From Zoogloea sp. (GTDB lineage: Bacteria; Pseudomonadota; Gammaproteobacteria; Burkholderiales; Rhodocyclaceae), in contig NZ_JAQVCN010000030.1 of the NCBI RefSeq assembly GCF_028689785.1, forward strand, positions 1 through 58,659: 58,659 bases of DNA, in the 5' to 3' direction. Position numbers and translations under genes: made by a program. The stretch's first letter is position 1. Each line of letters opens with the position of its first letter. Shown here piece by piece: positions 19,046-42,769 of this stretch. Under the pieces are notes generated by a model. That model was not told the DNA's origin, did no database searches, and saw only the letters and a program-made list of their open reading frames with translations.

Positions 19046-19097
19046 GTAAAGCGCTCCTCACCCGTCGGCACTATGCAAGCAAGCCTCATGAAGAGCC

Positions 19098-19949: not shown

Positions 19950-20016
19950 CGCAGAAACCTCGTTCTGTAAATACGCCCCGGCAATACAACCCGCAGGGCT
20001 TGATTCTTCGGGTGGG

Positions 20017-20043: not shown

Positions 20044-20078
20044 GCTCAAAAAGCAAGCCTGTCGTCACCCGACCAGAC

Positions 20079-20108
20079 TAAAAAAAACCGCCGATCAAAA
20101 GCCGGCGG
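20079..20108 (-). terminator. Rho-independent terminator of flhDC
   Basis: On the minus strand, CCGCCG and CGGCGG (20108-20103 and 20093-20088) form a stem with a nine-base loop, followed by eight T residues (20087-20080). It begins 26 bases after the flhC stop and separates flhDC from the motA operon. Confidence 0.85.
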
Positions 20109-20134
20109 CCAAGCTCTCAGAGTTCAGGGGCGCT

Positions 20135-20680: not shown

Positions 20681-20702
20681 GATGCCCTCTGGCCAGTGAC
20701 GG

Positions 20703-23249: not shown

Positions 23250-23410
23250 GTCTGGTCCAATGAGGTTCTGCGGCCTAAAGCCACGCGTCACACATTATCG
23301 GACATGTGCCCACGGGTCTTTAGGAGATCCCGGCGAAAAACGCAAAGCCTGACGTCCACACCGGCACCTTGAATTAGAATCCGAAAGGTATCCATGCTTC
23401 CATCCGGCCA

Positions 23411-25593: not shown

Positions 25594-25625
25594 CATCGGC
25601 TCCATATTCCCCTGGAGCACCGATG
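25594..25625 (+). promoter_or_regulatory. Hairpin sequestering the rfbF ribosome binding site and start codon
   Basis: CATCGG (25594-25599) pairs with CCGATG (25620-25625), whose last three bases are the rfbF ATG. CTCCA (25600-25604) pairs with TGGAG (25613-25617), which is the Shine-Dalgarno sequence. There is an 8-base loop and a 2-base bulge (25618-25619). All eleven pairs are Watson-Crick. In the mRNA this would hide both initiation signals of the first gene of the glycan operon. Confidence 0.55.
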
Positions 25626-26393
25626 AAAGCCGTGATCCTCGCGGGTGGCCTGGGCACCCGCATCAGCGAAGAGACCGTCAACCGCCCGAAGCCGATGATC
25701 GGCATCGGCGGTCGTCCCATTCTCTGGCACATCATGAAGATCTATTCCAGCCACGGCATTCACGACTTCGTGATCTGCTGCGGCTACATGGGCTACGTGA
25801 TCAAGGAGTACTTCGCCAACTACTTCCTGCACATGTCGGACGTCACCTTCGACATGACCCACAACCGCATGGAGATCCACGAACGCCATGCCGAACCCTG
25901 GCGCGTGACCCTGGTGGATACCGGCGATAGCACCCAGACCGGTGGCCGCCTGGGCCGGGTGCGCCAGTACCTGGAAGACGAGGACGCCTTCTGCTTCACC
26001 TACGGAGACGGGGTGGCCGACATCGACATCGGCGCCGAACTGGCCTTCCATCGCAAGCATGGCAAGCTGGCCACCGTCGCCGCCGTCCAGCCCCCCGGGC
26101 GCTTCGGCTCCCTGGAACTGAAGGGCGACGCCGTCAGCGCCTTCGTCGAGAAGCCCCTCGGCGACGGCGGCTTCATCAACGGCGGCTTCTTCGTGCTCTC
26201 GCCCAAGGTGCTGGACCTCATCGACAGCGACCAGACCATCTTCGAGGGCCCCGTCCTTGGCGAACTCATCGCCAAGGACCAACTCGCAGCCTTCCAGCAC
26301 ACCGGCTTCTGGCGCCCCATGGACACCCTGCGTGACAAGACCGTGCTGGAAGACCTGTGGACCAGCGGCAACGCCCCATGGAAAACCTGGTGA
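25623..26393 (+). CDS. rfbF: Glucose-1-phosphate cytidylyltransferase
   Basis: A 256-residue sugar nucleotidyltransferase making CDP-glucose from CTP and glucose-1-phosphate, the first step to CDP-3,6-dideoxyhexoses. The N terminus MKAVILAGGLGTRISEET carries the nucleotide-binding loop, and NRPKPMIGIGGRPILWHIMK is characteristic of the RfbF/AscA subfamily. It opens a nine-gene operon; rfbG overlaps its end by 16 bases. Its start codon and GGAG ribosome binding site lie in a predicted hairpin. Confidence 0.95.
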   Translation: MKAVILAGGLGTRISEETVNRPKPMIGIGGRPILWHIMKIYSSHGIHDFVICCGYMGYVIKEYFANYFLHMSDVTFDMTHNRMEIHERHAEPWRVTLVDTGDSTQTGGRLGRVRQYLEDEDAFCFTYGDGVADIDIGAELAFHRKHGKLATVAAVQPPGRFGSLELKGDAVSAFVEKPLGDGGFINGGFFVLSPKVLDLIDSDQTIFEGPVLGELIAKDQLAAFQHTGFWRPMDTLRDKTVLEDLWTSGNAPWKTW

Positions 26394-27445
26394 ATCCGGC
26401 CTTCTGGCGAGGCCGGCGGGTCTTCCTCACCGGCCACACCGGTTTCAAAGGCAGTTGGCTGAGCCTGTGGCTGCAGTCCATGGGCGCGGAGGTACACGGC
26501 TACGCCCTCGCCCCCGACACCACCCCGGCCCTTTTCGAGATCGCCGACGTGGCCGGCGGCATGCATTCCACGCTGGGCGACGTCCGTGACGCCATCGCCC
26601 TGCACACCGCCCTGGCCGCCGCCCGGCCGGAGATCGTCCTCCACCTGGCGGCCCAGCCCCTGGTACCGCTTTCATATGAGGCGCCGGTGGACACCTTCGC
26701 CACCAACGTGATGGGCACGGTGCATCTGCTCGATGCCTGCCGCCAGGTTCCCGACATACTGGCCGTGGTGGTGGTGAGCAGCGACAAGTGCTACGAAAAC
26801 CGCGAGCAGCCACAGGGCTACAGGGAAGACGACCCCATGGGCGGTCACGACCCCTACTCCGCCAGCAAGGGCTGCACCGAGCTGGTGGTCGCCTCCTACC
26901 GCCGTGCCTTCCTGTCTGCCCAGGGCATCCCCGTGGCCAGCGCCCGCGCCGGCAACGTGATCGGCGGCGGCGACTGGACCCCCAGCCGGCTGGTGCCCGA
27001 CGTGCTGGCCGCCTTTGCCGCCGGCACCCCCGTCACCCTGCGCAACCCGGGCGCCATCCGCCCCTGGCAGCACGTTCTGGAACCCTTGTCCGGCTACCTG
27101 CTGCTCGCGCAGCGGCTTGTCGAAAGCGGCCCGGTCTTTGCCGAAGGCTGGAACTTCGGCCCTGACGACAGCGACGCCAAGACCGTCGCCTGGGTCGTCG
27201 AGCGCCTGGCCGAAGGCTGGGGCCCCGACGCCCGCTGGGCCGTGGCCGACACCCCCCAGGTGCACGAAGCCCACACCCTCAAGCTCGACTGCAGCAAGGC
27301 CCGCAACCGGCTGGGCTGGCAAGCCCGCTGGCACGCCGGTGAAGCCGTGGCGCGCAGCCTCGCCTGGCACCGGGCCTGGCAGGGCGGCGCCGACATGCAG
27401 CGCTACACCCTCGACGAAATCGCCGCCTTCGGAAGCCCCCCATGA
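26378..27445 (+). CDS. rfbG: CDP-glucose 4,6-dehydratase
   Basis: A 355-residue extended short-chain dehydrogenase. It has the Rossmann motif [10 protein letters not shown] near residue 15, a catalytic Tyr-x3-Lys in DPYSASKGC, and [10 protein letters not shown]. It converts CDP-glucose to CDP-4-keto-6-deoxyglucose. ATG 26378 ([14 protein letters not shown]) lies inside the end of rfbF; an in-frame ATG 21 bases earlier is possible but less typical. The end overlaps rfbH by four bases (ATGA). Confidence 0.95.
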
Positions 27446-28806
27446 GCCTGATCCGCAAAACCCTCACCCCCGGCGCCGACGGCCGCCTCCAGCTCGACCT
27501 GCCGGAGCTGGCCGGGCAGGAACTGGAGATCATCGTCCGCCCGGCCCGGGCCGCCGCATCGCCGCAGGCCTGGCGCCCCGGCATCGACGCCGTGCCGCCC
27601 TCCGGCAAGGTCGTGGGTGACCCCGAGAAGGACGCCATGATCGACGCGGCCCTCGACGCCTGGCTCACCACCGGGCGCTTCAACGACGCCTTCGAGGCGC
27701 GCCTGGCCGCCTTCGTCGGCGTGGCCCACGCCCTCACCGTCAACTCCGGCTCGTCGGCCAACCTGGTGGCCTTCTCGACCCTTACTTCACCCAAGCTCGG
27801 CGCCCGCGCCATCCAGCCCGGCGACGAGGTCATCACCGTGGCGGCGGGCTTCCCGACCACCGTCAATCCCATCCTCCAGAACGGTGCCGTGCCGGTCTTC
27901 GTGGACGCCAGCCTGCCGGGTTACAACATCGACGTGAGCCTGCTGGAGGCGGCCCTGTCGCCCCGCACCAAGGCCATCATGATTGCCCACACCCTGGGCA
28001 ACCCCTTCGACCTGGACGCCATCTGCGCCTTCGCCCAGGCCCACGGCCTGTGGCTGATCGAAGACTGCTGCGACGCCCTGGGCTCCACCTGGAAGGGCCG
28101 CAAGGTCGGCACCTTCGGCCATCTCGCCACCCTGTCCTTCTACCCCGCCCACCACATCACCATGGGCGAGGGCGGCGCGGTGCTCACCAACGACCCGACG
28201 CTGCGCCAGATCGCCGAATCCTTCCGCGACTGGGGCCGTGACTGCTGGTGCAAGCCGGGCTGCGACAACACCTGCGGCAAGCGCTTCGGCTGGCAGCTGG
28301 GCAGCCTGCCCCAGGGTTACGACCACAAGTACACCTACAGCCACATCGGCTACAACCTCAAGATCACCGACATGCAGGCCGCCTGCGGCCTGGCCCAGCT
28401 GGACCGGCTGGACGCCTTCATCGCCGCCCGTAAACGCAACTTCACCCATCTCAGCGCGGCGTTGGACGACGCCCAGGATTTCCTGGTTCTGCCCGAAGCC
28501 ACCCCGGGCAGCGACCCGTCCTGGTTCGGCTACCCCATCACCCTACGCCCCGAGGCCGGGGTCAACCGCGTCGACCTGCTCGAATACCTCGACCAGCACA
28601 AGGTCGGCACCCGCCTGCTGTTTGCCGGCAACCTGACCCGCCAGCCCTCCATGGCCGGACGCAACTTCCGCGTGGTGGGCGAGCTACCGGTGGCCGACCG
28701 GATCATGCATGACACCTTCTGGATCGGCCTGTGGCCGGGGCTCAGCGAGGCCCAGCTGGACTACAGCGCCGGACTGATCCGCCAGTTTGTCGGCGCAGGC
28801 TTCTGA
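27442..28806 (+). CDS. rfbH: CDP-4-keto-6-deoxyglucose 3-dehydrase (E1)
   Basis: A 454-residue pyridoxamine-phosphate and [2Fe-2S] enzyme that removes the C3 hydroxyl. The cluster cysteines fit C-X57-C-X-C-X7-C exactly (C210, C268, C270, C278). The usual PLP lysine is replaced by histidine (H237 in [12 protein letters not shown]), the hallmark of E1 enzymes. E1 normally needs an NADH-dependent reductase partner (E3, AscD), which is not in this operon. About 65 residues precede the core ([18 protein letters not shown]...), as in other RfbH proteins. Confidence 0.95.
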
Positions 28807-28820
28807 CGCCCCCAGCCGCC

Positions 28821-30017
28821 ATGCTCCCCGACCTCCATCGCCCCTGCCCCCTCTGCGGCAACCGAGAGCCGGAGGTGCTGGCGCAGCTCTCCCTGCCCCA
28901 ACCCAGCCACTCGCCGCTGCCCCCGGGCTATCGCCTGGTGGCCTGTACGGACTGTGACCTCGCCTACGCCGACACCCCCGCCAGCCAGGCCGACTACGAC
29001 CGCTACTACCAGCACCTCGCCAAGTACGGCGGCCCCACTGGCACCGGCGCCGGCCAGGACGCCGCGGACATGCGGCGCCTGGAGCAACTCGCCGATCGCC
29101 TGGAGGCCGGACTCCCGGGCAAGGACGCGGCGATTCTCGATATCGGCTGCGGCGCCGGCGGACTGCTGCAGGTGCTTGGCGCCCGGGGCTACACCCAGGC
29201 TGAAGGCCTCGACCCGGACCCAGCGGCCGTGGCCGCCGCCCGCGCCCATGGCCTCGCCGTGCGGGCCGGGCTGGCCAGCGAATCGCCAGGCCTTTACGCC
29301 GGCATCCGCTTCGATCTCATCGTACTGTCCCATGTAGCCGAACACCTGCGCGACCTGGACTGGCTGCCCCGGCTGTCGACCCTGCTGGCACCGGGCGGCC
29401 GCCTGTACATCGAAGTCCCCGACCCCCGCGGCTACCGCTGCGACCCGCGCCCGCCCTACTACTACTTTGACAGCGAGCACATCAACCACTTCAGCCCCCA
29501 CGCCCTGGGCAGACTCTTCGCCTCGGCCGGCCTCGCCCCAGAGGCCTTTCCCGACTGCACCCTGACCCTGTCCGACGGCTCGACCTACCCGGCCTTCGCT
29601 GGCATTGCCAGCATGGGCTCAACAGCCTGCCCGGCCCCGGCAGCAGCCATTCCTCAGCTGCGCAGCTACCTGAACAACTGCGCCGCCCGCGCCCACCAGG
29701 CCATTCAGATCCACCCCCCTCTGGCGGAAGACACCCCGCTGCTAGTGTGGGGAGCTGGCTCATGGGCGCAACGCCTCCTCGGCCAAAACGCCATTCCCCT
29801 AGCCCGGGTGGCGGCCTTTCTGGATGGAGCTCCAAACAAGCAGGGGCAGACTTTCGCTGGCAAGCCCATCGTAGCCCCCGCCGATGGACTAAGTCGTCAC
29901 CCGAATGCACAAGTTCTTGTCTGCGTCGCCGTAAACCCCCATCAAATCGGGGCCGAGATCGCCCGCCTGGAACCTGGCCACGCCCGTAGCCTGCACTTCA
30001 TCACCGAGCCCACATGA
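28821..30017 (+). CDS. SAM-dependent methyltransferase with N-terminal zinc motif (sugar C-methyltransferase-like)
   Basis: A 398-residue protein. An N-terminal CPLCG...CTDCD pair suggests a zinc-binding module. A class I SAM-binding core (ILDIGCGAGGLLQVLG, near residue 107) is followed by HVAEHLRDLDW and EVPDP. A C-terminal Rossmann-like segment (LLVWGAGSWAQRLLG) completes an arrangement like the sugar 3-C-methyltransferases. In this operon the substrate may be the CDP-deoxysugar or the transferred glycan. The start is ATG 28821, 14 bases after rfbH; the end overlaps the next gene by ATGA. Confidence 0.8.
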   Translation: MLPDLHRPCPLCGNREPEVLAQLSLPQPSHSPLPPGYRLVACTDCDLAYADTPASQADYDRYYQHLAKYGGPTGTGAGQDAADMRRLEQLADRLEAGLPGKDAAILDIGCGAGGLLQVLGARGYTQAEGLDPDPAAVAAARAHGLAVRAGLASESPGLYAGIRFDLIVLSHVAEHLRDLDWLPRLSTLLAPGGRLYIEVPDPRGYRCDPRPPYYYFDSEHINHFSPHALGRLFASAGLAPEAFPDCTLTLSDGSTYPAFAGIASMGSTACPAPAAAIPQLRSYLNNCAARAHQAIQIHPPLAEDTPLLVWGAGSWAQRLLGQNAIPLARVAAFLDGAPNKQGQTFAGKPIVAPADGLSRHPNAQVLVCVAVNPHQIGAEIARLEPGHARSLHFITEPT

Positions 30018-31813
30018 AAGTTTCCGAACGCATCGCCGACTGGCTGGCCGATCACGGCATCGAGCAGGTGTTCACCGTCACCGGCGGCGGCGCCATGTAC
30101 CTCAATCAGGCCCTGGCCAGCCACCCGCGCCTGAAATGCACCTTCATGCACCACGAGCAAGCCTGCGCCATGGCCGCCGAAGGCTACGCCCGGGTCGCCG
30201 GCAAGCCGGCGGTGGTGATGGTGACCACCGGCCCCGGCGGCATCAACGCCCTCAACGGCGTGTTCGGCGCCTTCACCGACTCGATCCCCATGCTGGTCAT
30301 CGGCGGGCAGGTCAAGCGCGCCACCTGCCTCGAATACACCCCCGTGCCGGGCCTGCGGCAGCTGGGCGACCAGGAAGGTCCAGTGGTCGCCATGGCCCGC
30401 CCCGTCACCAAGCTGGCCGAGAGCGTGGGCAGCCCCGAGGCCCTGGCCGAGCTCCTGCCCCGCGCCCTGGCCACCGCCATCGGCGGGCGCCCCGGCCCGG
30501 TATGGCTGGACGTTCCCCTCGACGTCCAATCGGCCGAATGCCCGCCCCTGCCGGCCTTCACCGCACCGTCCCACCAAGCTCCGGCCGATCTGGAAGACGC
30601 CTGTCGGCAGATCGTCGCAAAACTGCGCGGCGCCCACCGCCCCCTGATCATCGCCGGCACGGGCGTGCGCCTGGCCAGCGCTGGCAGTGCCCTGCTGGCC
30701 TTTGCCGAAGCCCATGGCATCCCGGTGGCCACAGCCTGGACCCACGACCTCATCGCCAGCGATCACCCCCTGTTCGCCGGCCGTCCGGGCACCATCGGCA
30801 CCCGCGCAGGCAACTTCTGCGCCCAGAACGCCGACTGCGCGATCGTCATCGGCTCGCGCCTCAACATCCGCCAGGTCAGCTACAACTGGGACAGCTTCGC
30901 CAAGGACGCCTTCATCGCCCAGGTGGACGTGGACCCGGCCGAGCTGGCCAAGCCCTTCGTTCAGCCCCATCTGCGCCTGGCCTGTGATGCCCGGCTGTTC
31001 ATCGATGCCCTCACCGCCGCCTGCGCCGACGGCCTGCCGGATGTCCGCCCCTGGTCCGCCTGGTGCCGCGACATCCGCGCCCGCTACCCCGTCGGCGGCG
31101 CCTCCACCGACAACCCGCAGCTCCACCCCTACGCCCTGGTGGAACGCATCTTCGACCAGCTTCGCGACGACGACATCGTGGTCTGTGGCAACGCCTCGGC
31201 CTGCATCCTCCCCTTCCAGGTGGGCCGCCTGAAGGCCGGCCAGCGCATGTTCAGCAACTCGGGTTCGGCCTCCATGGGCTACGACCTGCCCGCCGCCATC
31301 GGCGCCGCCCAGGCCGCCGGCAGCCGCCGGGTGGTGTGCTTCGCCGGCGACGGCAGCCTGCAGATGAACATCCAGGAACTGCAGACCCTCAAGACCCTGG
31401 GCCTGGACGTGCTGATCGTGCTGATCGACAACGGCGGCTACCTTTCCATCCGCCAGACCCACGAGAACTTCTTCGGCCGGATCGTTGGTGCCACCCCGGC
31501 ATCGGGGGTCGAGTTTCCCGACTTTGCCCGGGTCGCCACGGCCTACGGCCTGGATGCCGTCAACATCGCCACGCCTGCCGATCTGCCGGCCCTCGACGCC
31601 GCCCTGGCCCGCCGCGGCCCGACCCTCATCGCCGCCCGAGTAGACCCGGCCCCCGGCTTCGAGCCCCGGATCAAGTCCCGCGCCCTGCCCGAGGGGGGCT
31701 TCGCCACCCCCGAGCTGGACGACATGTTCCCCTTCCTGCCCCCGGCCGAGCTGGCCGCGGTGCGTGCAGAAGCCCGCCGCATCCGTGCCTGGACGGGTGG
31801 AGCCGGCGCGTGA
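30014..31813 (+). CDS. Thiamine-diphosphate-dependent enzyme, acetolactate synthase-like (YerE-like candidate)
   Basis: A 599-residue ThDP enzyme with three domains. The catalytic glutamate is in HHEQACAMAAEGYAR (near residue 48). The ThDP/Mg motif runs from GDGSLQMNIQELQTL to the NGGY about 27 residues later. Acetolactate synthase is the close fold relative, but biosynthetic isozymes rarely sit in sugar operons and no small subunit follows. Next to rfbFGH it recalls YerE, the flavo-ThDP enzyme of Yersinia that adds a two-carbon unit from pyruvate to C4 of CDP-4-keto-3,6-dideoxyglucose. That specific reaction is inference. Confidence 0.82.
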   Translation: MKVSERIADWLADHGIEQVFTVTGGGAMYLNQALASHPRLKCTFMHHEQACAMAAEGYARVAGKPAVVMVTTGPGGINALNGVFGAFTDSIPMLVIGGQVKRATCLEYTPVPGLRQLGDQEGPVVAMARPVTKLAESVGSPEALAELLPRALATAIGGRPGPVWLDVPLDVQSAECPPLPAFTAPSHQAPADLEDACRQIVAKLRGAHRPLIIAGTGVRLASAGSALLAFAEAHGIPVATAWTHDLIASDHPLFAGRPGTIGTRAGNFCAQNADCAIVIGSRLNIRQVSYNWDSFAKDAFIAQVDVDPAELAKPFVQPHLRLACDARLFIDALTAACADGLPDVRPWSAWCRDIRARYPVGGASTDNPQLHPYALVERIFDQLRDDDIVVCGNASACILPFQVGRLKAGQRMFSNSGSASMGYDLPAAIGAAQAAGSRRVVCFAGDGSLQMNIQELQTLKTLGLDVLIVLIDNGGYLSIRQTHENFFGRIVGATPASGVEFPDFARVATAYGLDAVNIATPADLPALDAALARRGPTLIAARVDPAPGFEPRIKSRALPEGGFATPELDDMFPFLPPAELAAVRAEARRIRAWTGGAGA

Positions 31814-32910
31814 GCAGCGCTCGCTTTCCCTCCCTTGACTTCGAGGACGTCAGCACCGCCCTGGCGGAGGCGCGCCGGGATGGCGTGCTGATCTTCGGCT
31901 GCGGCAGCTTCGGCCGGGATCTTCACGCCACCCTCGCCCGCATGGGCATCACGGTGCGCGGTTTTGTCGTTTCGCGCGGCGAAGCGTCCCGCCTTTCCGG
32001 CTGCCCGGTCGCCCCGCTCACGGCGCTCCCGACGGGCTGGGCTTCCCTGCCCCTGTGGATCGGCGTATTCAATCGCGAACCCGGCTCCGATCACGCAACC
32101 CTGGCTTCCGCCTGCGAAGCCGCTGGCTTTTCCCGCGTCCTGCTGCCCCAGCAATACTTCGAAGCCCTCGGCGGCAACATGGGCTGGCGTTACTGGCTGG
32201 ACGAGCGGCAGGGTTACGCCGCCCGCACGTCCGAACTGCACGACAGCTTCGCCCAGTTGGAAGACGAACCCAGCCGCGCCTTCCTCGCCGACATCCTGCG
32301 CTATCGGCTGGGCCAGATCCGGGGCATCCCCTCCGCTCCCGTCTGCGGCCCCCAGTACTTCCCCGACTTTCTCACCGGCCTCGCCCACGGCCCGCTGGGC
32401 TTCGTGGATGCGGGCGCCTACAACGGCGACACCCTGACCGAAGCGCAGCGACACCTCCCCTTGCGGGAGGCCTGGGCCTTCGAGCCCGACCCGGCCAACT
32501 TCCCACTTCTCTCCGAGCGGGCCCGAGGCCTGGGCGTACCGGTCACCTGCCTGCCCTGCGGCCTGTCCTCGGTGAATGCCAGCCTGGCATTTTCCGGCGG
32601 TCACGGTGAAGCCAGCACCCTGGGCGGAGAAGGCAACAGCCACATCCAGGTACTACGCCTCGACGACTGCCTGCCCAACGCCCGGGTGGACTACCTGAAG
32701 CTGGATGTGGAGGGCCACGAGATGGAGGCTCTGACTGGTTCCGAAGCCCTCATCCGCCGCAACCGCCCCGTCCTCGCCATTGCCGGCTATCACCGCCGTG
32801 ACGACCTGTGGCGCATCCCCGCCTGGATCGCCAGCCTCGATCTCGACTACCGGCTGCGTTTCCGGATCCACGCCCACAACTCCTTCGACGCGGTCTTCTA
32901 CGCTTACTGA
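31810..32910 (+). CDS. FkbM-family methyltransferase
   Basis: A 366-residue protein. Residues 1-100 form a small Rossmann-like domain (VLIFGCGSFGRDLHATL). The FkbM-type SAM domain starts near residue 195 (GFVDAGAYNGDTLTEA) and has LDDCLPNARVDYLKLDVEGHE near its end. FkbM enzymes O-methylate sugars and polyketides. The start is the GTG at 31810, overlapping the preceding stop as GTGA, the same coupling style as elsewhere in this operon. It may methylate the deoxysugar or the flagellin-bound glycan. Confidence 0.85.
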   Translation: MSSARFPSLDFEDVSTALAEARRDGVLIFGCGSFGRDLHATLARMGITVRGFVVSRGEASRLSGCPVAPLTALPTGWASLPLWIGVFNREPGSDHATLASACEAAGFSRVLLPQQYFEALGGNMGWRYWLDERQGYAARTSELHDSFAQLEDEPSRAFLADILRYRLGQIRGIPSAPVCGPQYFPDFLTGLAHGPLGFVDAGAYNGDTLTEAQRHLPLREAWAFEPDPANFPLLSERARGLGVPVTCLPCGLSSVNASLAFSGGHGEASTLGGEGNSHIQVLRLDDCLPNARVDYLKLDVEGHEMEALTGSEALIRRNRPVLAIAGYHRRDDLWRIPAWIASLDLDYRLRFRIHAHNSFDAVFYAY

Positions 32911-32918
32911 GGTCCATC

Positions 32919-34010
32919 ATGAGCAACGCCATCTTCGAAAACCTGTTCATCCTCGAACTCGCCAACAACCACTGGGGGCGCCTAGAGCGCGGGCTTCGCA
33001 TCGTCAATGACTTTGCCCAGGTGGTGCGCTTCAACAACGTGCGGGCGGCCATCAAGCTGCAGTTCCGCGAGGTGGACCACTTCATCCACAAGGATTTCCG
33101 CGGCCGTGAGGACATCCGCTACGTCAAGAAGACCGAAGCCACCCGGCTCAGCAAGGCCGAGTACCGGACCCTGGTGAAGGCCATCAAGGAGCGCAACTGC
33201 ATTCCCATGGCCACCGCCTTCGACGAGGCCTCGGTGGATCTGTGCGAAGAGCTGGATCTCCCCATCATCAAGATCGCCAGCTCCGACATCAACGACTGGT
33301 TCCTCATCGAACGCATCGCCGAGACGCGCAAGCCGGTCATCGTGTCCACCGGTGGCTCAACCCAGAAGGACATCGACGACATGGTGACCTTCTTCGCCAA
33401 CCGCAACATCCCGCTGGCAGTGAACCACTGTGTCTCCATCTACCCCAGCGAGGATGACGAGCTGGAGCTGAATCAGATCGACTTCCTGCGCCAGCGCTAT
33501 CCGAAGAACGTCATCGGCCTGTCCACCCACGAGTACCACGACTGGACGTCGTCGATGCTGCTCTCCTACGCCAAGGGCGCCCGCACCTGGGAGCGCCACA
33601 TCGACGTCGAGGAGGACGGCATCCCCGTATCGCCCTACTGCTCCCTGCCCCACCAGATCGACCAATGGTTCAAGGCCTTCCACAAGGCGGTAGAGATGTG
33701 TGGCGGCACCGGCACGGCCAAGCGCGTGCCCAAGAAGAAGGAAACCGAATACCTGGACGGACTGGTCCGCGGTGTATACGCCAAGCGCGACCTCCCCGCC
33801 GGCTACGAGCTGCACCACCAGAACCTGGAAGACGATTTCTACCTGGCCATCCCCCTGCAGAAGGGCCAGCTGTCCTGCCGCGAGACCATGAACGGCCTCA
33901 AGCTGACCCGCCCCGTCACCAAGGACTCGCCCCTGGAGATCGACGACGTGGACAGCCCGTATTCCCAAAACGAATCCCTGCGCAAGCTCATCTATAGCCG
34001 CGGCTTGTGA
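32919..34010 (+). CDS. NeuB-family (sialic acid synthase-like) protein with SAF domain
   Basis: A 363-residue protein. The N-terminal TIM barrel begins FILELANNHWGRLERGLRIV, a divergent form of the NeuB start, and includes IKLQFREVDHF, IIKIASSDINDWFLI, VIVSTGGST and GLSTHEYHD. A C-terminal SAF/antifreeze-like domain (RGVYAKRDLPAGYELH) follows. NeuB enzymes join phosphoenolpyruvate to a six-carbon sugar to give nine-carbon acids. No NeuC, Pse/Leg pathway or CMP-transferase gene is present, so the substrate is uncertain and may be a novel sugar. The start is ATG 32919 with a GAGG site upstream. Confidence 0.85.
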   Translation: MSNAIFENLFILELANNHWGRLERGLRIVNDFAQVVRFNNVRAAIKLQFREVDHFIHKDFRGREDIRYVKKTEATRLSKAEYRTLVKAIKERNCIPMATAFDEASVDLCEELDLPIIKIASSDINDWFLIERIAETRKPVIVSTGGSTQKDIDDMVTFFANRNIPLAVNHCVSIYPSEDDELELNQIDFLRQRYPKNVIGLSTHEYHDWTSSMLLSYAKGARTWERHIDVEEDGIPVSPYCSLPHQIDQWFKAFHKAVEMCGGTGTAKRVPKKKETEYLDGLVRGVYAKRDLPAGYELHHQNLEDDFYLAIPLQKGQLSCRETMNGLKLTRPVTKDSPLEIDDVDSPYSQNESLRKLIYSRGL

Positions 34011-35089
34011 GCCTTCGCAGCCCTGACGCCATGTCACGCCCCCTGCTCCCGTCCCCCGCCTGCCCTGCCGTCCACGGCCGGCTCGGGGCGCTGCTGGCTC
34101 ACCTGGACACCCGAAGCCTCCACGACCAGCGGATCTTCGTGACCGGGGGAACGGGCTTCTTCGGCTACTGGCTGCTGAGCCTGTTCGACCTGCTGCACCG
34201 CCAGGGCGTGGCGCTGAAGGTCTGCGTGCTGTCCCGCTCGCCCACCGCCTACCTGGCTCGCGCACCCTACTTCGCCGACGCCCCCTGGCTGCAATGGCTG
34301 CAGGGCGACATCAAGGACTTCGGCGCCATTCCGGCATCCAACCTGCTGATCCACGCCGCCACCGACACCGACGCCGACGCCCATCGCCACCCGCTGGCGA
34401 TCATGGACGACATCCTGCTCGGCACCCGCCACACCCTCGAACGGGCCCGGGAAGCCGGCGTGCGCCGCGCCCTCTACGTGAGCTCCGGTGCCGTGTATGG
34501 CCGACAGCCTGCCGACGTGGCGCAGATTCCCGAGGACGCGGCCTTTGCCTGCGACGCCCTGCACGCGGGCAGCGCCTACGGCGAAGCGAAGCGCGCCGCC
34601 GAGCAGTGGTGCCTGCAGTTCGGTCTGCAGCATGGCATCGCCATTCCTGTCGCCCGCTGTTTCGCCTTCGTCGGCGCCACCCTGCCCCTGGATGGCCACT
34701 TCGCCATCGGCAACTTCATCGGCGACGCCCTCGCCGGGCACGACATCCATGTCAGCGGCGACGGCAGCCCCCAGCGCAGCTACCTCTACGGCGCCGACCT
34801 GGCCATCTGGCTGCTGACCATCCTGCTCAGCGGGCAGCACGGCCGCGCCTACAACGTCGGCGCCGACCAGGGCATATCGATCGCCGAACTGGCTGGCCGG
34901 GTGCGCGACACCCTGGCTCCCGGCGCAGCCGTCCACATTGCCCGCGGCCAGGACGACAAGGCCGAACGCAACCGCTACATCCCCGCCATCGACCGGGCCC
35001 GCCATGAACTGGCGCTGGACGCCTGGACCCCCCTGGAGGAGGCCATCCGCCTGACGGCGGAATGTGCCTCTCCCGTATCGCAACCCTGA
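34007..35089 (+). CDS. NAD-dependent epimerase/dehydratase (extended SDR)
   Basis: A 360-residue (or 352-residue) sugar-nucleotide dehydrogenase. It has the cofactor motif VTGGTGFFGYWLLSL near residue 45 and the catalytic SSGAVYG...SAYGEAKRAAE triad. It could be the 4-ketoreductase or epimerase finishing the CDP-dideoxysugar (a YerF-like step) or an epimerase for a second sugar. The GTG at 34007 overlaps the previous stop as GTGA, matching other junctions here. An ATG at 34031 is the alternative start. Confidence 0.85.
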   Translation: MSLRSPDAMSRPLLPSPACPAVHGRLGALLAHLDTRSLHDQRIFVTGGTGFFGYWLLSLFDLLHRQGVALKVCVLSRSPTAYLARAPYFADAPWLQWLQGDIKDFGAIPASNLLIHAATDTDADAHRHPLAIMDDILLGTRHTLERAREAGVRRALYVSSGAVYGRQPADVAQIPEDAAFACDALHAGSAYGEAKRAAEQWCLQFGLQHGIAIPVARCFAFVGATLPLDGHFAIGNFIGDALAGHDIHVSGDGSPQRSYLYGADLAIWLLTILLSGQHGRAYNVGADQGISIAELAGRVRDTLAPGAAVHIARGQDDKAERNRYIPAIDRARHELALDAWTPLEEAIRLTAECASPVSQP

Positions 35090-35096
35090 GCCGTCG

Positions 35097-38000
35097 ATGA
35101 CCGCCATGCGCCAACTCTTTTCCGCCCCCCGCCGCCCGTACTACATCGACGCACCGGCCTATCGGCGCACGTCAGCGGGCATCCGGGTCCTGCACCTCCT
35201 GTGCCATGCCCTCAACAGCATCGGCGAGGAGGCCTATGTCTACCCGACCGAAACCAACCCGATCCTCAACACCCCGCTGGTCACGCCCGAGCTCATGGAA
35301 CGCCATAAGGCCACCGGCCGTGAGCCCATCGTCGTTTATCCAGAAGTTGTACCCGGCAACCCACGCAAGGCGGCCTCGGTGGTGCGCTACGTACTCAACC
35401 GGGCCGGGCTGCTGGGGGGAGACAGCGTCTATGCGGACACCGAGCTGATTTTCGGCTTCGGTCTCAATGCCCTGCCGGACGATGCAGACCCGCAGAACAT
35501 CCTGTTCCTGCCGCCCATCGATACCGCCATCTTCAACAACCTGAACAACCCCTTCGATAATCAGCGCAGCGGCGCCCTGCTCTACCCTGGTCGCCACCAG
35601 GCTGCGCTGGCCCAATATCCCCAATTGGCCACCGAGGCCACCCTGATCACCTACAGCTGGCCCGAAAGCCACGAGGCCCTGGCTGATCTGCTGCGCCGCA
35701 GTGAGGTGGTCTATTGTTTCGAATCCACAGCCATCGCCGCCGAAGCGGCCTTGTGCGGCTGCCCAGCGGTAATCCTCCCGTCCCCCTTCTTCAATGGTGT
35801 CGCCCTGAGCGAGGCCGAGATCGGCCGCAACGGGATCGCCCTGAACGATTCGCCGGAAGAAATCGCCTTTGCCCGCAGCAGCGTCGGAAAGATGTGGGAC
35901 GCCTACCAGGCGGCGGAGGCACGCTTCTGGAGCCAGCTGGATCACTTTGTCGCCACCACCCAGGCTATGCCGGTCAGCGACGTTTCCGCCCAGCCCGCCG
36001 AAGACCCCGCAGCCGCCGAAGCCCGTCAGACCTATGCGGTGTGGCGCAAACGCCAGAGTCTGCAGGAGATCGACGCCCAGCTCCTCGCCGAGCGCATGGT
36101 CCTCAAATGGACCCAGCGCCCCGGTCTACATCTGCTGCTGGCCTTGCACGCGGGGGAAGAAAGCCTCCTCGCCGACACCCTCGACAGTCTGGCCGCCCAA
36201 CTCTATCCCGAATGGATGCTGACGGTGGTCACCGTGCTGCCCACCCCGGAAGGCCTGGCCGACATCCCCAACCTGCAATGGCTGTCCGTACGCGATCCGG
36301 CTCATATCGATTACGTCATCGACGAGATGGCTGCCGCCTCGCCGGGCACCTGGCTGGCCCGCATCGAGCCGGGTGTCACCCTTGAGCCCCACGCCCTGCA
36401 GGTCATCGCCGACTACATCAACCACTGCCCCGACTGGCGCCTGATCTACTGCGACGAGGATACCCGCGACACGGACGGCAGCTTCAACCACCCCCTGTTC
36501 AAACCCGACTTCAATCTCGACCTGCTGCGCGCCCAGGCCTATTTCGGCTGCCTGGTATTCGTGGAGAAGCAGAGTTTCCTGGCCGCCGGCCGCTATGGCC
36601 AGCACGCTGGCGCCGAGAACTACGACCTCTCCCTGCGCACCCTCGAACTCGCTGGCGAAGCCGCCATCGGCCACATCAGCCAGATGCTGGCCCACCTGCC
36701 CCGCCAGTCAAGCCGCGCCATGGTACCCGAGGCCGAACGGGCAGCCCTGGCCGATCACCTGACACGCCTCGGCCTCAACGCCCTCATCCACGACGGCGCC
36801 CTGTTCGGCACCCGCCGCGTGGAATATCGCTGGAACGCGGCACCACTCGTCAGCATCATCATCCAGACCCGCGACCGGGAAGAGTACCTGCGCCCCCTGC
36901 TCGAGAGCATCGCCACGCGCACCCGCTACCCGAACTACGAGGTGGTGGTGGTAGACAACGACAGCACTGACCCGGATGCCCTCCAGTTCCTGGCGCAACT
37001 GGGCAGCACAGCGCCGTGGATCGAGCGGGCCCGCGTCATCGCCTGCCCCGGCACTTTCAGCTACGCCCTGGGCGCCAACACCGGAGCCGCAGCCGCCCGG
37101 GGCGACTACCTGTTCTTCCTCGACAACGACACCCATGTGGTGCAGGAGGACTGGCTGGACCGTTTGATGTCCCTGGCCTGCCGGCCCGACGTGGGCATCG
37201 TCGGGCCGCGCCTGACCTACCCCGAGACCGCCAAGGTGCAGCAAGCCGGCTGGATCCTAGGCCTGCGCGGCACAGCCGCCAGCGTCTGGAACAACGATGC
37301 GGAAATCACCGACCCAGGCTACATGGGTCGCGCCCTGTGCGATCAGAACGTCAGCGCAGTATGCGGCTCGGCCCTGCTGGTCCGGCGCAGCCTGTTCGAA
37401 CAGCTGGGGGGGATGGACGGTGAACGCTTCCCTCTCGCCCACAGCGCCCTGGATCTATGCCTGCGCGCCGCCGACACCGGGCTCAAGGTGCTGTGGACGC
37501 CCTACGCCATGCTGGTGCATTACGATGCCATCTCCCTCAAGGCACGCCAACGCAAACCGGAAGGCGCCCTGGCCGACCTGCTCGCGGCCCTCGAAGCCAA
37601 CGACCGGCTGCTCAAGCGCTGGCTGCCGCGCCTGGCCAACGACCCGGCCTACAACCGCAACCTGAGCCTGGTCGACGCCTTCAAGCCCGAGCACATCACC
37701 CCCGTCGACTGGGACACCCACTTCCACGACCGGCCGCGCATCCTCGGCGTGCCCCTCACCGGCGGAGCCGGCGAATACCGCCTGCGCGCGCCCCTGCGCG
37801 CCATCGGCCAGGCCGGCCTCGCCCAGACCATGATCTGCGAACCGCCTAAAGCCTTCTCGGTGCGCATCCTGTCGCCCATCGAACTGGCCCGCGCCGCGCC
37901 CGACTCGATCATCCTGCACCAGCCCCTCGACGATCCGCAGACCGACGCCCTTGAGGCCTATGCCCGCTACACCCCCCAGGTAAAGCGAATCATCACCATC

Positions 38001-38729
38001 GACGACCTGGTCACCGCTTTACCCAAAAAGAACTCCTTCTACAAGTCCGGCTTCAAGGATGCCCGGCCACGCCTGCGCCGCACCCTGGGCATGGCCGACC
38101 GGCTGGTGGTCAGCACCCGCCCCCTGGCAGACATCTGCGCCGACATGATCGGCGACATCCGGATCATGCCCAATTGCCTGGAAAGCAGCCTGTGGGGCGA
38201 CGTGGTGCCACCACGCCTGCCACGCAGGAAGCCGCGGGTCGGCTGGGCCGGCGCCCAGCAACATCTGGGCGACCTTGAACTCATCTACACCGTGGTCGAA
38301 GCCCTAACCGACGAAGTGGACTGGATATTCATGGGCATGTGCCCCGAGCCGCTGAAGCCCTTCGTGCGGGAATCCCACGGCTTCGTTCAGGATTTCCGCC
38401 TGTATCCCCAGGCCCTGGCCCGGCTCGACCTGGACCTCGCCATTGCCCCGCTGGAGATCCACAGCTTCAACGAATGCAAGAGCAATTTGCGCCTCCTCGA
38501 ATACGGCGCCATGGGCTGGCCGGTGATCTGCACCGACATCTACCCTTACCAGAACGCACCGGTCACCCGCCTGGCCAATGACCCTCAGAAGTGGATTTCC
38601 ACGATCCGCGAGCAGCTCGCCGAGCCCGATGCCCTGCGCGAAGCCGGCCTCATCCTGCAGCGCTGGGTCGCCGACGGCTTCATCCTCGAAAACCACGCCG
38701 CCAGCTGGTTCGCGGCCTACGGACCATGA
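35097..38729 (+). CDS. Large multidomain glycosyltransferase, candidate flagellin glycosyltransferase
   Basis: A 1210-residue protein with about four modules. Residues 10-280 resemble a degenerate GT-B domain (EVVYCFESTAIAAEAALCGC). At about 340-565 is a GT-A-like domain with YCDEDTRDTDG. At about 580-820 is a full GT2 domain (LVSIIIQTRDREEYL, FLDNDTH near 674). At about 880-1195 is a GT4-like domain (WAGAQQHLGD near 1050, then NECKSNLRLLEYGAMGWPVI). No membrane segment or signal peptide is seen, so it is cytoplasmic. It is the last gene of the glycan operon and lies 290 bases before fliC. Large, soluble multi-GT proteins next to fliC often glycosylate flagellin; here that is inference from position. 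Confidence 0.85.
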   Translation: MTAMRQLFSAPRRPYYIDAPAYRRTSAGIRVLHLLCHALNSIGEEAYVYPTETNPILNTPLVTPELMERHKATGREPIVVYPEVVPGNPRKAASVVRYVLNRAGLLGGDSVYADTELIFGFGLNALPDDADPQNILFLPPIDTAIFNNLNNPFDNQRSGALLYPGRHQAALAQYPQLATEATLITYSWPESHEALADLLRRSEVVYCFESTAIAAEAALCGCPAVILPSPFFNGVALSEAEIGRNGIALNDSPEEIAFARSSVGKMWDAYQAAEARFWSQLDHFVATTQAMPVSDVSAQPAEDPAAAEARQTYAVWRKRQSLQEIDAQLLAERMVLKWTQRPGLHLLLALHAGEESLLADTLDSLAAQLYPEWMLTVVTVLPTPEGLADIPNLQWLSVRDPAHIDYVIDEMAAASPGTWLARIEPGVTLEPHALQVIADYINHCPDWRLIYCDEDTRDTDGSFNHPLFKPDFNLDLLRAQAYFGCLVFVEKQSFLAAGRYGQHAGAENYDLSLRTLELAGEAAIGHISQMLAHLPRQSSRAMVPEAERAALADHLTRLGLNALIHDGALFGTRRVEYRWNAAPLVSIIIQTRDREEYLRPLLESIATRTRYPNYEVVVVDNDSTDPDALQFLAQLGSTAPWIERARVIACPGTFSYALGANTGAAAARGDYLFFLDNDTHVVQEDWLDRLMSLACRPDVGIVGPRLTYPETAKVQQAGWILGLRGTAASVWNNDAEITDPGYMGRALCDQNVSAVCGSALLVRRSLFEQLGGMDGERFPLAHSALDLCLRAADTGLKVLWTPYAMLVHYDAISLKARQRKPEGALADLLAALEANDRLLKRWLPRLANDPAYNRNLSLVDAFKPEHITPVDWDTHFHDRPRILGVPLTGGAGEYRLRAPLRAIGQAGLAQTMICEPPKAFSVRILSPIELARAAPDSIILHQPLDDPQTDALEAYARYTPQVKRIITIDDLVTALPKKNSFYKSGFKDARPRLRRTLGMADRLVVSTRPLADICADMIGDIRIMPNCLESSLWGDVVPPRLPRRKPRVGWAGAQQHLGDLELIYTVVEALTDEVDWIFMGMCPEPLKPFVRESHGFVQDFRLYPQALARLDLDLAIAPLEIHSFNECKSNLRLLEYGAMGWPVICTDIYPYQNAPVTRLANDPQKWISTIREQLAEPDALREAGLILQRWVADGFILENHAASWFAAYGP

Positions 38730-38766
38730 AGGCCATCGCCCTCAAGCCTGAAAGCATGTCGAAAAC

Positions 38767-38800
38767 CGGTCGCCCAGGGCAACCGTGTCACATCTTTTTT
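38767..38800 (+). terminator. Possible terminator after the glycan operon
   Basis: CGGTCGCC (38767-38774) and GGCAACCG (38778-38785) pair with one C-A mismatch and a three-base loop. Six T residues follow nine bases later (38795-38800). It is weaker than the other terminators in the window and lies just before the fliC promoter. Confidence 0.4.
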
Positions 38801-38803
38801 GGC

Positions 38804-38830
38804 TAAAGCTTTGTTTTTTGGGGCCGCTAT
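38804..38830 (+). promoter_or_regulatory. Sigma-28 (FliA) promoter of fliC
   Basis: TAAAGCTT (38804-38811), an 11-base spacer and GCCGCTAT (38823-38830) match TAAAGTTT-N11-GCCGATAA at 7/8 and 6/8 positions. Transcription would begin near 38838, leaving a leader of about 180 bases before the fliC ATG. That leader has an AAGGAG ribosome binding site; I found no other clear element in it. Confidence 0.85.
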
Positions 38831-39019
38831 CAAAGGCCAAGCGGTAATCCGCCGACACCCACCCTAAAAACAAAAAAATGAAAAAAGTCAACAATTTTCT
38901 AAAGTCCTTCCAGCGTCTCCCGTTAATGATTTCAACGGCGGTTGCCTTACACACACCGGGCAAGGCGAACCAAAGTTAAGCCTAAACGCTTATCTTGAAC
39001 GGACTTAAGGAGAACCAAA

Positions 39020-39844
39020 ATGGCTGCCACTATCAACACCAATGCGATGTCGCTCAATGCGCAACGCAACCTTTCCACCTCCCAGGCCAGCCTGGCGACT
39101 TCCGTGCAACGTCTGTCTTCCGGCCTTCGCGTCAATAGCGCAAAGGATGACGCCGCAGGCCTGGCAATTGCCGACCGCATGAACTCGCAAGCCAAGGGCT
39201 TCGACGTGGCAATCCGCAACGCCAACGACGGTATCTCCATGGCGCAGACCGCTGAAAGCGCGATGCAGGCCGTGACCGACAACCTCCAGCGGATGCGCGA
39301 ACTGGCCGTGCAGGCAGCCAACGGCACCTACTCCTCCGGCGACCAAGCCAACCTGGACACCGAATTCCAGCAACTGCAACAAGAAATCCAGCGTGTTATC
39401 GGCGGCACCACCTTCAACGGCCAGAACGTGCTGAGCCAGAGCGGTGCAGTCACCTTCCAGGTCGGCGCTGGCACCGCAACCACCGATACCATCACGGTGC
39501 AGGGCAGTGCGGTTTCCCTGACCGGCGTGTCCGCCGCGGTGACCGGCAGTGTGACCAGCGTCAGCGGCGCCACCGCAGCGATTGCGAGCATCGACACCCA
39601 GTTGAATAACCTGAACACCGCCCGGGCCACCTGGGGTGCCGTGCAAAACCGCTTCACCTCGGTTGTGCAGACCCTGCAGGTCGCGTCCGAGAACGCCAAC
39701 GCGTCGCGCGGCCGGATCATGGATGCCGACTTCGCGAAGGAAACCGCCAACATGACCCGCGGCCAGATCCTGCAACAGGCCGGCACCGCGATGGTGGCTC
39801 AGGCCAACAGCATGCCCAACAACGTGCTGTCCCTGCTGAGATAA
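39020..39844 (+). CDS. fliC: Flagellin
   Basis: A 274-residue flagellin. The N-terminal D0/D1 region ([37 protein letters not shown]) and C-terminal D1/D0 region ([20 protein letters not shown], ending NNVLSLLR) are intact. The central segment (about 140-195) is very short and rich in Thr, Ser, Gly and Val, with little or no D2/D3. Its exposed Ser/Thr residues are possible O-glycosylation sites, in line with the adjacent glycan operon. Expression is from the sigma-28 promoter at 38804-38830. The ATG has a strong AAGGAG site. Confidence 0.97.
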
Positions 39845-39921: not shown

Positions 39922-40311
39922 ATGAGCATCCAGTCCGTCGGCGCGAGCAGCACGCAATACGCGCCTCCCGTACAGAATCCTGGGCAGAACCTGGGCACAG
40001 GCGCCGTACGTACGGTGGAGGCTACTCCCGAAGCAGGCCGCACCCAGGAAACGAACGCATCCAAGAGCACGCCCGGGACGCCACCGACAAGCGAACAGCT
40101 GAACCAAGCCGTCAAACAGATCCAGGACGTGATCAAGCAGACGGCCAACAGCCTTCAATTCTCCATCGACGAAGACATCGGCGTTACCGTCGTGAAAGTC
40201 ATCGATACGGAATCAAAGAAAGTCATCCGGCAGATTCCATCGGAAGAAGTCATGGATATCGCAAAAGCCCTCGACAAACTGCAGGGTCTGCTCGTCAAGC
40301 AGAAGGTTTGA
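39922..40311 (+). CDS. flaG: FlaG family protein
   Basis: A 129-residue protein with the conserved FlaG C-terminal domain: LQFSIDEDIGVTVVKVIDTESKKVIRQIPSEEVMDIAKAL. The N-terminal half is Pro/Gln/Thr-rich and probably disordered. FlaG affects filament length and is usually encoded between fliC and fliD, as here. No dedicated promoter is obvious, so it is probably read through from fliC. Confidence 0.92.
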   Translation: MSIQSVGASSTQYAPPVQNPGQNLGTGAVRTVEATPEAGRTQETNASKSTPGTPPTSEQLNQAVKQIQDVIKQTANSLQFSIDEDIGVTVVKVIDTESKKVIRQIPSEEVMDIAKALDKLQGLLVKQKV

Positions 40312-40349
40312 CCCCCTTTCCGTAGCCACCCCCTCCCCTGGCAACACTT

Positions 40350-40380
40350 ATCCCACCCTGGAGGTGGGATTTTCTTTTCC
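40350..40380 (+). terminator. Rho-independent terminator after flaG
   Basis: ATCCCACC (40350-40357) and GGTGGGAT (40363-40370) form an eight-base stem with a five-base loop, followed by TTTCTTTT. It ends the fliC-flaG transcript before the fliD promoters. Confidence 0.88.
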
Positions 40381-40458
40381 CGGACGAAACGCACGCTTAC
40401 GATGATTACCGCAGGAAGCGGTCAGACATGAGGTCATGCCGATGCAACCTTCGTGACC

Positions 40459-40474
40459 TGGCACAGTCCATGCT
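40459..40474 (+). promoter_or_regulatory. Sigma-54-like promoter upstream of fliD
   Basis: TGGCACAGTCCATGCT fits the -24/-12 consensus with a single mismatch and exactly ten bases between GG (40460-40461) and GC (40472-40473). It lies 91 bases before the fliD ATG and upstream of the sigma-28 promoter. Sigma-54 flagellar promoters are unusual in organisms that use FlhDC, so functional use needs proof. Confidence 0.5.
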
Positions 40475-40500
40475 GCATGAGTGCAGGATCGGCAAAGCAC

Positions 40501-40527
40501 TCAAGTTTGTGCAAGTAACGCCGTAAT
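40501..40527 (+). promoter_or_regulatory. Sigma-28 (FliA) promoter of fliD
   Basis: TCAAGTTT (40501-40508), an 11-base spacer and GCCGTAAT (40520-40527) match the sigma-28 consensus at 7/8 and 5/8 positions. The -35 octamer is identical to that of the motA promoter. It is 37 bases from the fliD ATG. Confidence 0.78.
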
Positions 40528-40564
40528 CGAAACCAGTAGTGACGAAGCAACACGGGGGTACATC

Positions 40565-41950: not shown

Positions 41951-41968
41951 CCCCGACCGGAGAACAAG

Positions 41969-42382
41969 ATGTCGTTTGGCCTCGCCGCCCGTCGTGCTGC
42001 CTCAATCTATGCTGAAGTCGGCGTGGAAAGCGGCGTCTCCACCGCGGACCCCCACCAACTCATCCTGATGCTCTTCGAAGGCGCCCTGCTGCAAATCGGC
42101 ACGGCCGCCATCGCCATGGACAACAAGGACATTCCAACCAAGGGCGCCGCCACCTCCAAGGCCATCGAGATCATCACCAACGGACTCAAGGTCAGCCTCG
42201 ACTACGAAGCCGGCGGCGAACTGGCCGAGCGCCTTGGCGCCCTATACGACTACATGACGCAGCGTCTGCTGTACGCGAACCTGCACAACAGCCGGCCCGC
42301 CCTGGACGAGGTGGCCCGTTTGCTCAACGAACTGAAAGGCGCCTGGGAAGAAATCGGCACGTACGACCAGGCCAACCGCTAA
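41969..42382 (+). CDS. fliS: Flagellin export chaperone FliS
   Basis: A 137-residue helical chaperone. The conserved start (YAEVGVESGVSTADPHQLILMLFEG) and SLDYEAGGELAERLGALYDYM are visible. FliS binds the C terminus of flagellin before export. It sits in the usual fliD-fliS-fliT order with a GGAG ribosome binding site. Confidence 0.95.
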   Translation: MSFGLAARRAASIYAEVGVESGVSTADPHQLILMLFEGALLQIGTAAIAMDNKDIPTKGAATSKAIEIITNGLKVSLDYEAGGELAERLGALYDYMTQRLLYANLHNSRPALDEVARLLNELKGAWEEIGTYDQANR

Positions 42383-42746: not shown

Positions 42747-42769
42747 GCGCCGCCCCGGGCGGGCAATCC

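Follow-up and report, generated by a model that had tools for sequence, protein, structure and literature searches.

The window examined here is a stretch of 58,659 nucleotides from Zoogloea sp., a whole contig (C40) of a 5.08-Mb genome in 128 contigs. It carries nine packed genes that end just upstream of the flagellin gene fliC. We argue that these genes form a flagellin glycosylation island that would make a C4-branched 3,6-dideoxyhexose bound to cytidine diphosphate (CDP), with a branch longer than that of yersiniose and with a relative of the sialic acid synthase NeuB supplying the donor. That the nine genes build a carbon-branched sugar for the flagellum is very probable; the full route proposed here is, judged from sequence, moderately probable. 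The core of the argument is an observation: the NeuB-like gene is a regular partner of a gene for a thiamine diphosphate (ThDP)-dependent enzyme, and the pairing recurs in many phyla. It is widespread, and in control loci it is separable from nonulosonate synthesis. The initial annotation had already proposed a branched CDP-3,6-dideoxy sugar with flagellin as its target. The partnership, which comes without a cytidine monophosphate (CMP) synthetase, goes beyond that proposal, and so does the apparent likeness of one methyltransferase to sugar C-methyltransferases.

All nine open reading frames (ORFs) and fliC are confirmed on the plus strand, and the nine run in one direction from 25623 to 38729. 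Their eight junctions are overlaps of 16, 4, 4, 4 and 4 bp or gaps of 14, 8 and 7 bp, and 290 bp separate the stop of the last gene, a glycosyltransferase, from the fliC start. The tight packing first described for this island, its distance from fliC included, is therefore correct. The start given then, 25594, is 29 bp 5' of the rfbF ATG.

The NeuB-like synthase (32919-34010, plus strand, 363 aa; PF03102 at 130.6 bits on the longer ORF 32808-34010) belongs to a ThDP-associated subfamily. Relatives were found by scanning one genome per species across 84,980 species, and the best 80 of at least 531 confirmed relatives were retained. Their identities are 64-100%, so the counts below describe close relatives. 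They come from the Pseudomonadota, Bacteroidota, Acidobacteriota, Planctomycetota, Verrucomicrobiota, Myxococcota, a cyanobacterium and others, with many metagenome-assembled genomes among them; three Zoogloea loci (L067-L069) have a protein 99-100% identical. No match was found on plasmids at E 1e-40. A ThDP enzyme match (E 1e-10, 80 aa) is present in 73 of the 80 NeuB-centred loci, at most 1.5 kb from NeuB in 55 and at most 60 bp from it in 18. Four of the seven misses are contigs of 3.1-4.8 kb, and the other three (L131, L134, L144) are misses within 12.8-19.7 kb. The controls are 20 loci chosen by a match to the PseI model, out of 32 listed; 19 are above the cut-off and one is from the Zoogloea genome itself. 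None of the 20 has a ThDP match.

The sequence of the NeuB-like protein also sets it apart from its namesakes. It scores 116.4 bits against a PseI cut-off of 340 and 114.9 bits against a NeuB cut-off of 400 (NCBIfam), so it reaches neither equivalog score. The SDHT motif of 19/20 controls is S[TS]HE in all 84 NeuB-like relatives, and E134, which is Glu in 20/20 controls, is Asp in 84/84. A GPD motif meant as a diagnostic is weaker than hoped (0/84 against 11/20 controls). The best solved relative is 3g8r, which matches over nearly the full length. Residues were mapped through the alignment with solved relatives, 3g8r being the best of them. What we take to be the catalytic residues, under the NeuB numbering as we assume it (E25, K53, Q55, K129, S132, Y186, H215 and H236), are unchanged in 84/84. 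Because this set is kept, the protein is likely a working aldol enzyme that uses phosphoenolpyruvate (PEP).

One can ask what such an enzyme makes. The CMP-nonulosonate synthetase, CTP_transf_3, turns up in 18 of the 20 controls but in 1 of 85 NeuB-ThDP loci; the profile used was built from proteins of the Zoogloea genome and of the controls and hence is biased toward the latter. The same profile finds none among the window ORFs. This contrast suggests that the product of the NeuB-like enzyme is probably no nonulosonic acid destined for activation. The enzyme seems instead to be a sialic acid synthase relative repurposed to supply the branch. If its product is a sugar phosphate, a phosphatase gene is expected nearby. 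A HAD phosphatase gene lies at most 89 bp from NeuB in 15/80 loci, and a homologue is found somewhere in the stretch in 34/85 loci against 0/20 controls. The ThDP partnership, the loss of the CMP step, the altered motifs around an intact catalytic set and this phosphatase subset are all consistent with a synthase that makes its product for the carboligase to use.

Some side observations on these loci follow. The single CTP_transf_3 among the NeuB-ThDP loci sits in L045 and is PseF-like. Two IMG/VR contigs, L045 and L046, carry the NeuB-like, ThDP and an RfbH-like gene. A 3-dehydroquinate-synthase-like gene is present in 7/85 NeuB-ThDP loci (L010:2132-3316, L045:5140-6246, L101, L103, L108, L110 and L126), and its protein may act on the same 2-oxo-3-deoxy product. 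The Zoogloea genome may also have a nonulosonate pathway elsewhere (C75:1313-5094; L166, L168). There a second NeuB-family gene at C75:4123 scores 293 bits on the PseI model, below the cut-off, and a CTP_transf_3 gene at C75:1313 is 2.3 kb from it.

The partner is a putative YerE-like ThDP-dependent carboligase (30014-31813, plus strand, 599 aa) with three TPP_enzyme domains in Pfam. Its closest solved relative is 8rph at 335.9 bits, and the runner-up is 97 bits lower at 238.5. The aligned motif of 8rph is CDG instead of GDG. JanthE, a YerE-like enzyme, is described with that same replacement (PMC12247030). From this motif we infer that 8rph is JanthE. The window enzyme has the ordinary GDG at residue 445 and has Glu48. 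YerE from Yersinia couples pyruvate to CDP-4-keto-3,6-dideoxyglucose. The YerE-like enzyme ErwE couples longer hydroxylated 2-oxo acids to the same sugar, and prefers donors like 4-hydroxy-2-oxo acids (PMC12247030). A NeuB-type reaction would give an acid of this class, which supports a route where NeuB provides the donor for the ThDP enzyme.

The sugar core is better defined. RfbF, the glucose-1-phosphate cytidylyltransferase (25623-26393, plus strand, 256 aa), scores 461.6 bits on TIGR02623 against a cut-off of 300.25. RfbG, the CDP-glucose 4,6-dehydratase (26378-27445, plus strand, 355 aa), scores 478.6 on TIGR02622 against 278.45. RfbH, the CDP-4-keto-6-deoxyglucose 3-dehydrase or E1 (27442-28806, plus strand, 454 aa), scores 721.6 on PRK15407 against 423. 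These are curated NCBIfam cut-offs, and all three proteins exceed them by wide margins. RfbH has an intact four-cysteine motif, C-X57-C-X-C-X7-C, at residue 210 and a His at the site of the pyridoxal phosphate Lys of transaminases. Both are features of the E1 dehydrase. Since the scores and the RfbH features agree, CDP-4-keto-3,6-dideoxyglucose is the expected intermediate, as was originally predicted for rfbFGH. The same equivalogs, the RfbH iron-sulfur motif and a ThDP enzyme whose nearest solved relative is apparently JanthE all support the original claim of a branched CDP-3,6-dideoxy sugar as the product. It must be noted that in L090:4217-6017 GHMP kinase and nucleoside triphosphate transferase genes adjoin the ThDP-methyltransferase-NeuB genes. 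There is no rfbG or rfbH match at that locus, and it is the only one where the GHMP kinase family was seen.

Three further enzymes would tailor the sugar. MT1, a probable nucleotide-sugar C-methyltransferase (28821-30017, plus strand, 398 aa), was modelled with 31 sequences at a predicted local distance difference test score (pLDDT) of 92. In the PDB the top 18 matches of the model comprise only chains of KijD1, TcaB9 and MtmC, aligned across about 420 columns. H175, E219 and H220 of MT1 are invariant in 31/31 aligned sequences and align in a profile search with H181, E224 and H225 of TcaB9 (chain numbers are shifted by two). TcaB9 Y222 is not conserved. The three-domain fold of the TcaB9 type and its active-site His/Glu/His are both present. 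MT1 therefore looks like a sugar C-methyltransferase, and of the island's two methyltransferases one probably introduces a C-methyl group. The other is an FkbM-family methyltransferase with an N-terminal extension (31810-32910, plus strand, 366 aa; PF05050 and TIGR01444 on the longer ORF 31063-32910), and its residues 198-366 match 2py6. The third is an SDR-family protein of the NAD-dependent epimerase/dehydratase type (34007-35089, plus strand, 360 aa; PF01370 at 106.8 bits), and an SDR match is present in 45/80 NeuB-centred loci. YerF reduces the branch ketone in the yersiniose pathway, and by analogy it is plausible that this SDR enzyme does the same.

We argue that flagellin is the likely target because the glycosyltransferase family sits directly upstream of fliC. 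The window glycosyltransferase, the proposed flagellin O-glycosyltransferase or chain builder (35097-38729, plus strand, 1210 aa; PF00535), has GT-A and GT-B domains in its model. Its N-terminal ~290 residues are partly of low confidence and barely covered in the structure comparison, and no fold is claimed for them. Its homologues are at most 420 bp upstream of fliC on the same strand in 14 of 20 fetched relatives' loci. Flagellin is in the stretch for 18 of the 20, and the other two are contigs of 10.6 and 6.1 kb. The proposed acceptor, FliC (39020-39844, plus strand; PF00669 at 154.5 bits, PF00700 at 88.6 bits), is indeed short (274 aa) with a Ser/Thr-rich core, as had been noticed: 18 of the 50 residues from 141 to 190 are Ser or Thr, against 37/224 elsewhere. 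With a glycosyltransferase and nucleotide-sugar genes immediately next to fliC, the locus has the layout of a flagellin glycosylation island.

The layout is also repeated. Other Zoogloea, Curvibacter and Pseudomonas have these genes too, in identical or almost identical order (for example L069, L074, L092 and L135), so the island is not a chance assembly. Zoogloea oleivorans is among the carriers of the cassette (L071). Some recurring cassettes have no MT1 or FkbM match. fliC is inside 14 of the 80 NeuB-centred loci, including those of Zoogloea, Pseudomonas, Xylophilus and Rhodoferax, and is on the opposite strand in the Xylophilus and Rhodoferax loci. The synteny search that the initial annotation recommended finds cassette, glycosyltransferase and fliC together in Zoogloea, Pseudomonas and one genome of another family. 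This and the glycosyltransferase-fliC adjacency uphold flagellin as target. That annotation did not recognise the exact combination of genes, but it is not rare and recurs across genera. A flagellin label on the ThDP tree needs at least 4 changes, which means that cassettes moved next to flagellin genes, or away from them, on more than one occasion. In one genome (G172; L056 / L157) a PseI cassette is upstream of the same glycosyltransferase family and flagellin. This suggests that the sugar genes preceding this family are swapped as cassettes.

The gene identities, conserved catalytic residues, co-occurrence and synteny shown above would fit the following route, where from the second step on the reactions, like the linkage to flagellin, are what we infer. 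RfbF, RfbG and RfbH would turn glucose-1-phosphate into CDP-4-keto-3,6-dideoxyglucose, drawing electrons from a reductase whose gene lies elsewhere. The NeuB-like enzyme would join PEP and an aldehyde, perhaps a sugar phosphate, into a 4-hydroxy-2-oxo (3-deoxy) acid. The ThDP enzyme would decarboxylate that acid to an acyl anion and join this to the keto sugar at C4. The SDR enzyme would then reduce the new ketone, MT1 would add a C-methyl and the FkbM enzyme an O-methyl. The glycosyltransferase would transfer the sugar, alone or in a short chain, to Ser/Thr of the flagellin core before export. Before methylation, a residue with a reduced branch would have a mass of 174.089 for two carbons (the yersiniose type), 234.110 for four, 264.121 for five and 294.131 for six. 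One can imagine a general version of this route for higher-carbon and branched sugars: a subfamily of NeuB relatives has given up sialic-type acids for CMP activation and makes 2-oxo-3-deoxy acids, and a ThDP carboligase decarboxylates them and adds them to a sugar ketone, as a two-enzyme route that is portable across phyla and came near flagellin more than once. We are evenly divided on whether it holds that widely.

Several points weigh against the proposed route. The E3 reductase (DdhD/RfbI), the usual electron donor of RfbH, is not in the cassette. Of 12 FAD_binding_6 matches genome-wide nine were scanned and none reached an E3 equivalog score, the existence of an NCBIfam model for E3 being unchecked. 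The window has no HAD phosphatase homologue, so the aldehyde may carry no phosphate, or the job may fall to a housekeeping phosphatase. Among three relatives at 38-40% identity, L012 has the ThDP enzyme while L011 and L013 do not. A mirror-tree comparison does not set the ThDP-NeuB pair apart, its rho being 0.50 against 0.56 for ThDP-rfbH. At least two of rfbF, rfbG and rfbH are matched in only 43/80 NeuB-centred loci, so the acceptor must vary, and loci where the three are absent must use another one. In genome G068 the cassette (L009) has no fliC in its stretch and is followed by GtrA-like and GT2 genes, and the glycosyltransferase-fliC pair is on another contig (L048). A similar sugar module therefore probably also has a non-flagellin use in some species, perhaps in a lipid-linked surface glycan; uses in lipopolysaccharide (LPS) are among the likely ones.

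Shewanella oneidensis counts both ways. Neither motility nor flagellin modification there can do without any one of four sfmABCDE products, a NeuB, a TPP enzyme, an SDR-type reductase and a methyltransferase (PMC3765264), which is in favour of the proposed route. When any of sfmA-D is deleted, however, flagellin shifts to roughly the mass it has without modification (PMC3765264). The authors found no other clear PseI orthologue and read SfmA as PseI-like (PMC3765264). These facts suit a PseI-like SfmA and speak against a donor-maker, so they are a point against carrying our reading of the NeuB-like enzyme over to SfmA. One escape is that the glycan may need completion before transfer, as the authors suggest (PMC3765264).

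It is worth considering what else the island could be. One scenario is a yersiniose-type island, where the ThDP enzyme uses pyruvate to make a two-carbon branch and the NeuB-like protein has a separate job, such as another acidic glycan residue. YerE from Yersinia takes pyruvate with the same CDP-keto sugar (PMC12247030), and pyruvate requires no partner enzyme. Nevertheless the NeuB-like gene travels with the ThDP gene in 73/80 loci, and does so even where rfbFGH is not found. A separate acidic sugar would also need a CMP-synthetase, which is not found in 84/85 loci or in the window. We consider this scenario unlikely. A true nonulosonic acid of the pseudaminic or legionaminic type is very unlikely; a cytidylyltransferase from another locus would activate it, and it would share one flagellin glycan with the 3,6-dideoxy sugar. 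The NeuB fold and catalytic residues are conserved, SfmA is read as PseI-like and its mutant loses flagellin modification (PMC3765264), and the Zoogloea genome does have a CTP_transf_3 at C75:1313. That gene, though, lies beside its own NeuB-family gene, and the window protein is at 116 bits against the PseI cut-off of 340. We disfavour a true nonulosonate pathway on the controls without a ThDP match, the CTP_transf_3 contrast, the change of SDHT to S[TS]HE and E134D.

The target can be questioned too. It is quite unlikely that the sugar goes mainly to LPS or a different surface polysaccharide and that the fliC neighbourhood is incidental. YerE-like branched sugars are described as LPS sugars (PMC12247030), and the L009 cassette runs into GtrA-like and GT2 genes rather than fliC. 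Against this, the glycosyltransferase belongs to a family adjacent to flagellin in 14/20 relatives. The repeated changes of the flagellin label on the ThDP tree mean that nearness arose or ended repeatedly. Pfam scans of 40 window ORFs find no Wzx, Wzy, WaaL or O-antigen exporter, and the sole ABC transporter seen in them (240-2412) has importer-type BPD_transp_1 permeases. LPS had been named as the main alternative at the outset. The part of that suggestion that stands is a likely non-flagellin use in other species; in the window itself the scanned ORFs speak against it. We reject an incidental neighbourhood of island and fliC since the adjacency recurs.

Much of what surrounds the island is likewise concerned with motility. 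Genes that are presumably flaG-, fliD- and fliS-like follow fliC on the plus strand (39922-42382), judged from their translations, and their homologues follow fliC in related loci. A FliK-like gene is at 42659-43861. The minus strand encodes CheA, a methyl-accepting chemotaxis protein, MotB, MotA and FlhC at 13982-20812, and also a GGDEF protein on either side of the flagellar region (21219-23291 and 44544-46187). A sigma-28-like promoter candidate precedes fliC (38900-38926, plus strand) with two mismatches to TAAAG-N14-GCCGATAA, and an equally good second one starts at 38804. This is a consensus scan with many chance-like matches: about 30 sites with at most 3 mismatches occur across the window and many are surely chance. 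No such site is in the 100 bp before rfbF, and the promoter scan has no sigma-54 match. Outside this region, 8628-13805 has a sulfite/nitrite reductase, a phosphoadenosine phosphosulfate (PAPS) reductase and an EF-Tu-type GTPase, probably for sulfate assimilation. On the minus strand are a protein with MORN repeats (51802-53598) and long ORFs for which Pfam gives no match (53595-55088 and 54889-57234).

If the proposed route is true, sialic-acid-synthase-like and acetolactate-synthase-like genes jointly make a long donor for branched sugars. There would be a source for hydroxylated 2-oxo acid donors such as ErwE prefers, the annotation of nonulosonic acid capacity would be corrected, and there would be new enzymes for tertiary-alcohol synthesis. 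Flagellin islands, branched LPS sugars, rfbFGH in flagellin islands and the need for NeuB and TPP genes in Shewanella are already published. As far as searches of the open-licence PubMed Central (PMC) literature show, flagellin bearing a branched sugar of the YerE type would be new. No paper there combines yersiniose with flagellin glycosylation. Among the matches listed, no text joins a YerE-type pathway with flagellin or NeuB with YerE. Queries for rfbFGH, ThDP and NeuB with flagellin, and for NeuB with acetolactate synthase and CDP sugars, gave only the papers cited here among the matches listed.

The closest known systems each share a part of this island. The Clostridium flagellar island has rfbF, rfbG and rfbH orthologues (PMC13317340), and enterobacterial FGI type 23 has CDP-4-keto-6-deoxyglucose genes in a flagellin island of 4 strains (PMC4875605). 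Unlike the window, their predicted products are paratose-like, and the words thiamine and acetolactate are absent from the main texts of both papers. TcaB9, KijD1 and MtmC (PDB 3ndi, 5t64 and 4rv9) are named sugar 3-C-methyltransferases in their PDB entries and have the three-domain fold and His/Glu/His of MT1. They differ in that TcaB9 and KijD1 act on deoxythymidine diphosphate sugars according to the PDB titles, TcaB9 Y222 is not kept, and identity is 16-19%. The nearest solved relative of the NeuB-like protein, 3g8r, is titled 'probable spore coat polysaccharide biosynthesis protein E'. In the YerE-like pathways of yersiniose, erwiniose and caryophyllose a ThDP carboligase makes a tertiary alcohol, and the acceptor of YerE and ErwE is CDP-4-keto-3,6-dideoxyglucose, as proposed here (PMC12247030). 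Those pathways are described in LPS and not in flagellin, and words beginning NeuB-, neuraminate- or flagell- are absent from the main text of that paper.

The Shewanella sfm operon is nearest in overall content. Compared by description, it shares with the window a NeuB-domain gene, a TPP enzyme, an SDR of the 3-oxoacyl-ACP-reductase type and an S-adenosylmethionine-dependent methyltransferase (PMC3765264). Unlike the window it has no rfbFGH, it has an ATP-grasp gene and nearby Maf genes, and SfmA is 290 aa (PMC3765264). Its outer flagellin moiety is apparently nitrogen-free and methylated. From the ion formulae of the paper the outer unit works out as C11H20O7, or as C9H16O7 once its two methyls are taken off (PMC3765264). 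The latter is the composition of a deoxynonose residue, a composition that many structures share. By analogy, the two-enzyme reading might re-read the SfmA/SfmB pair as well.

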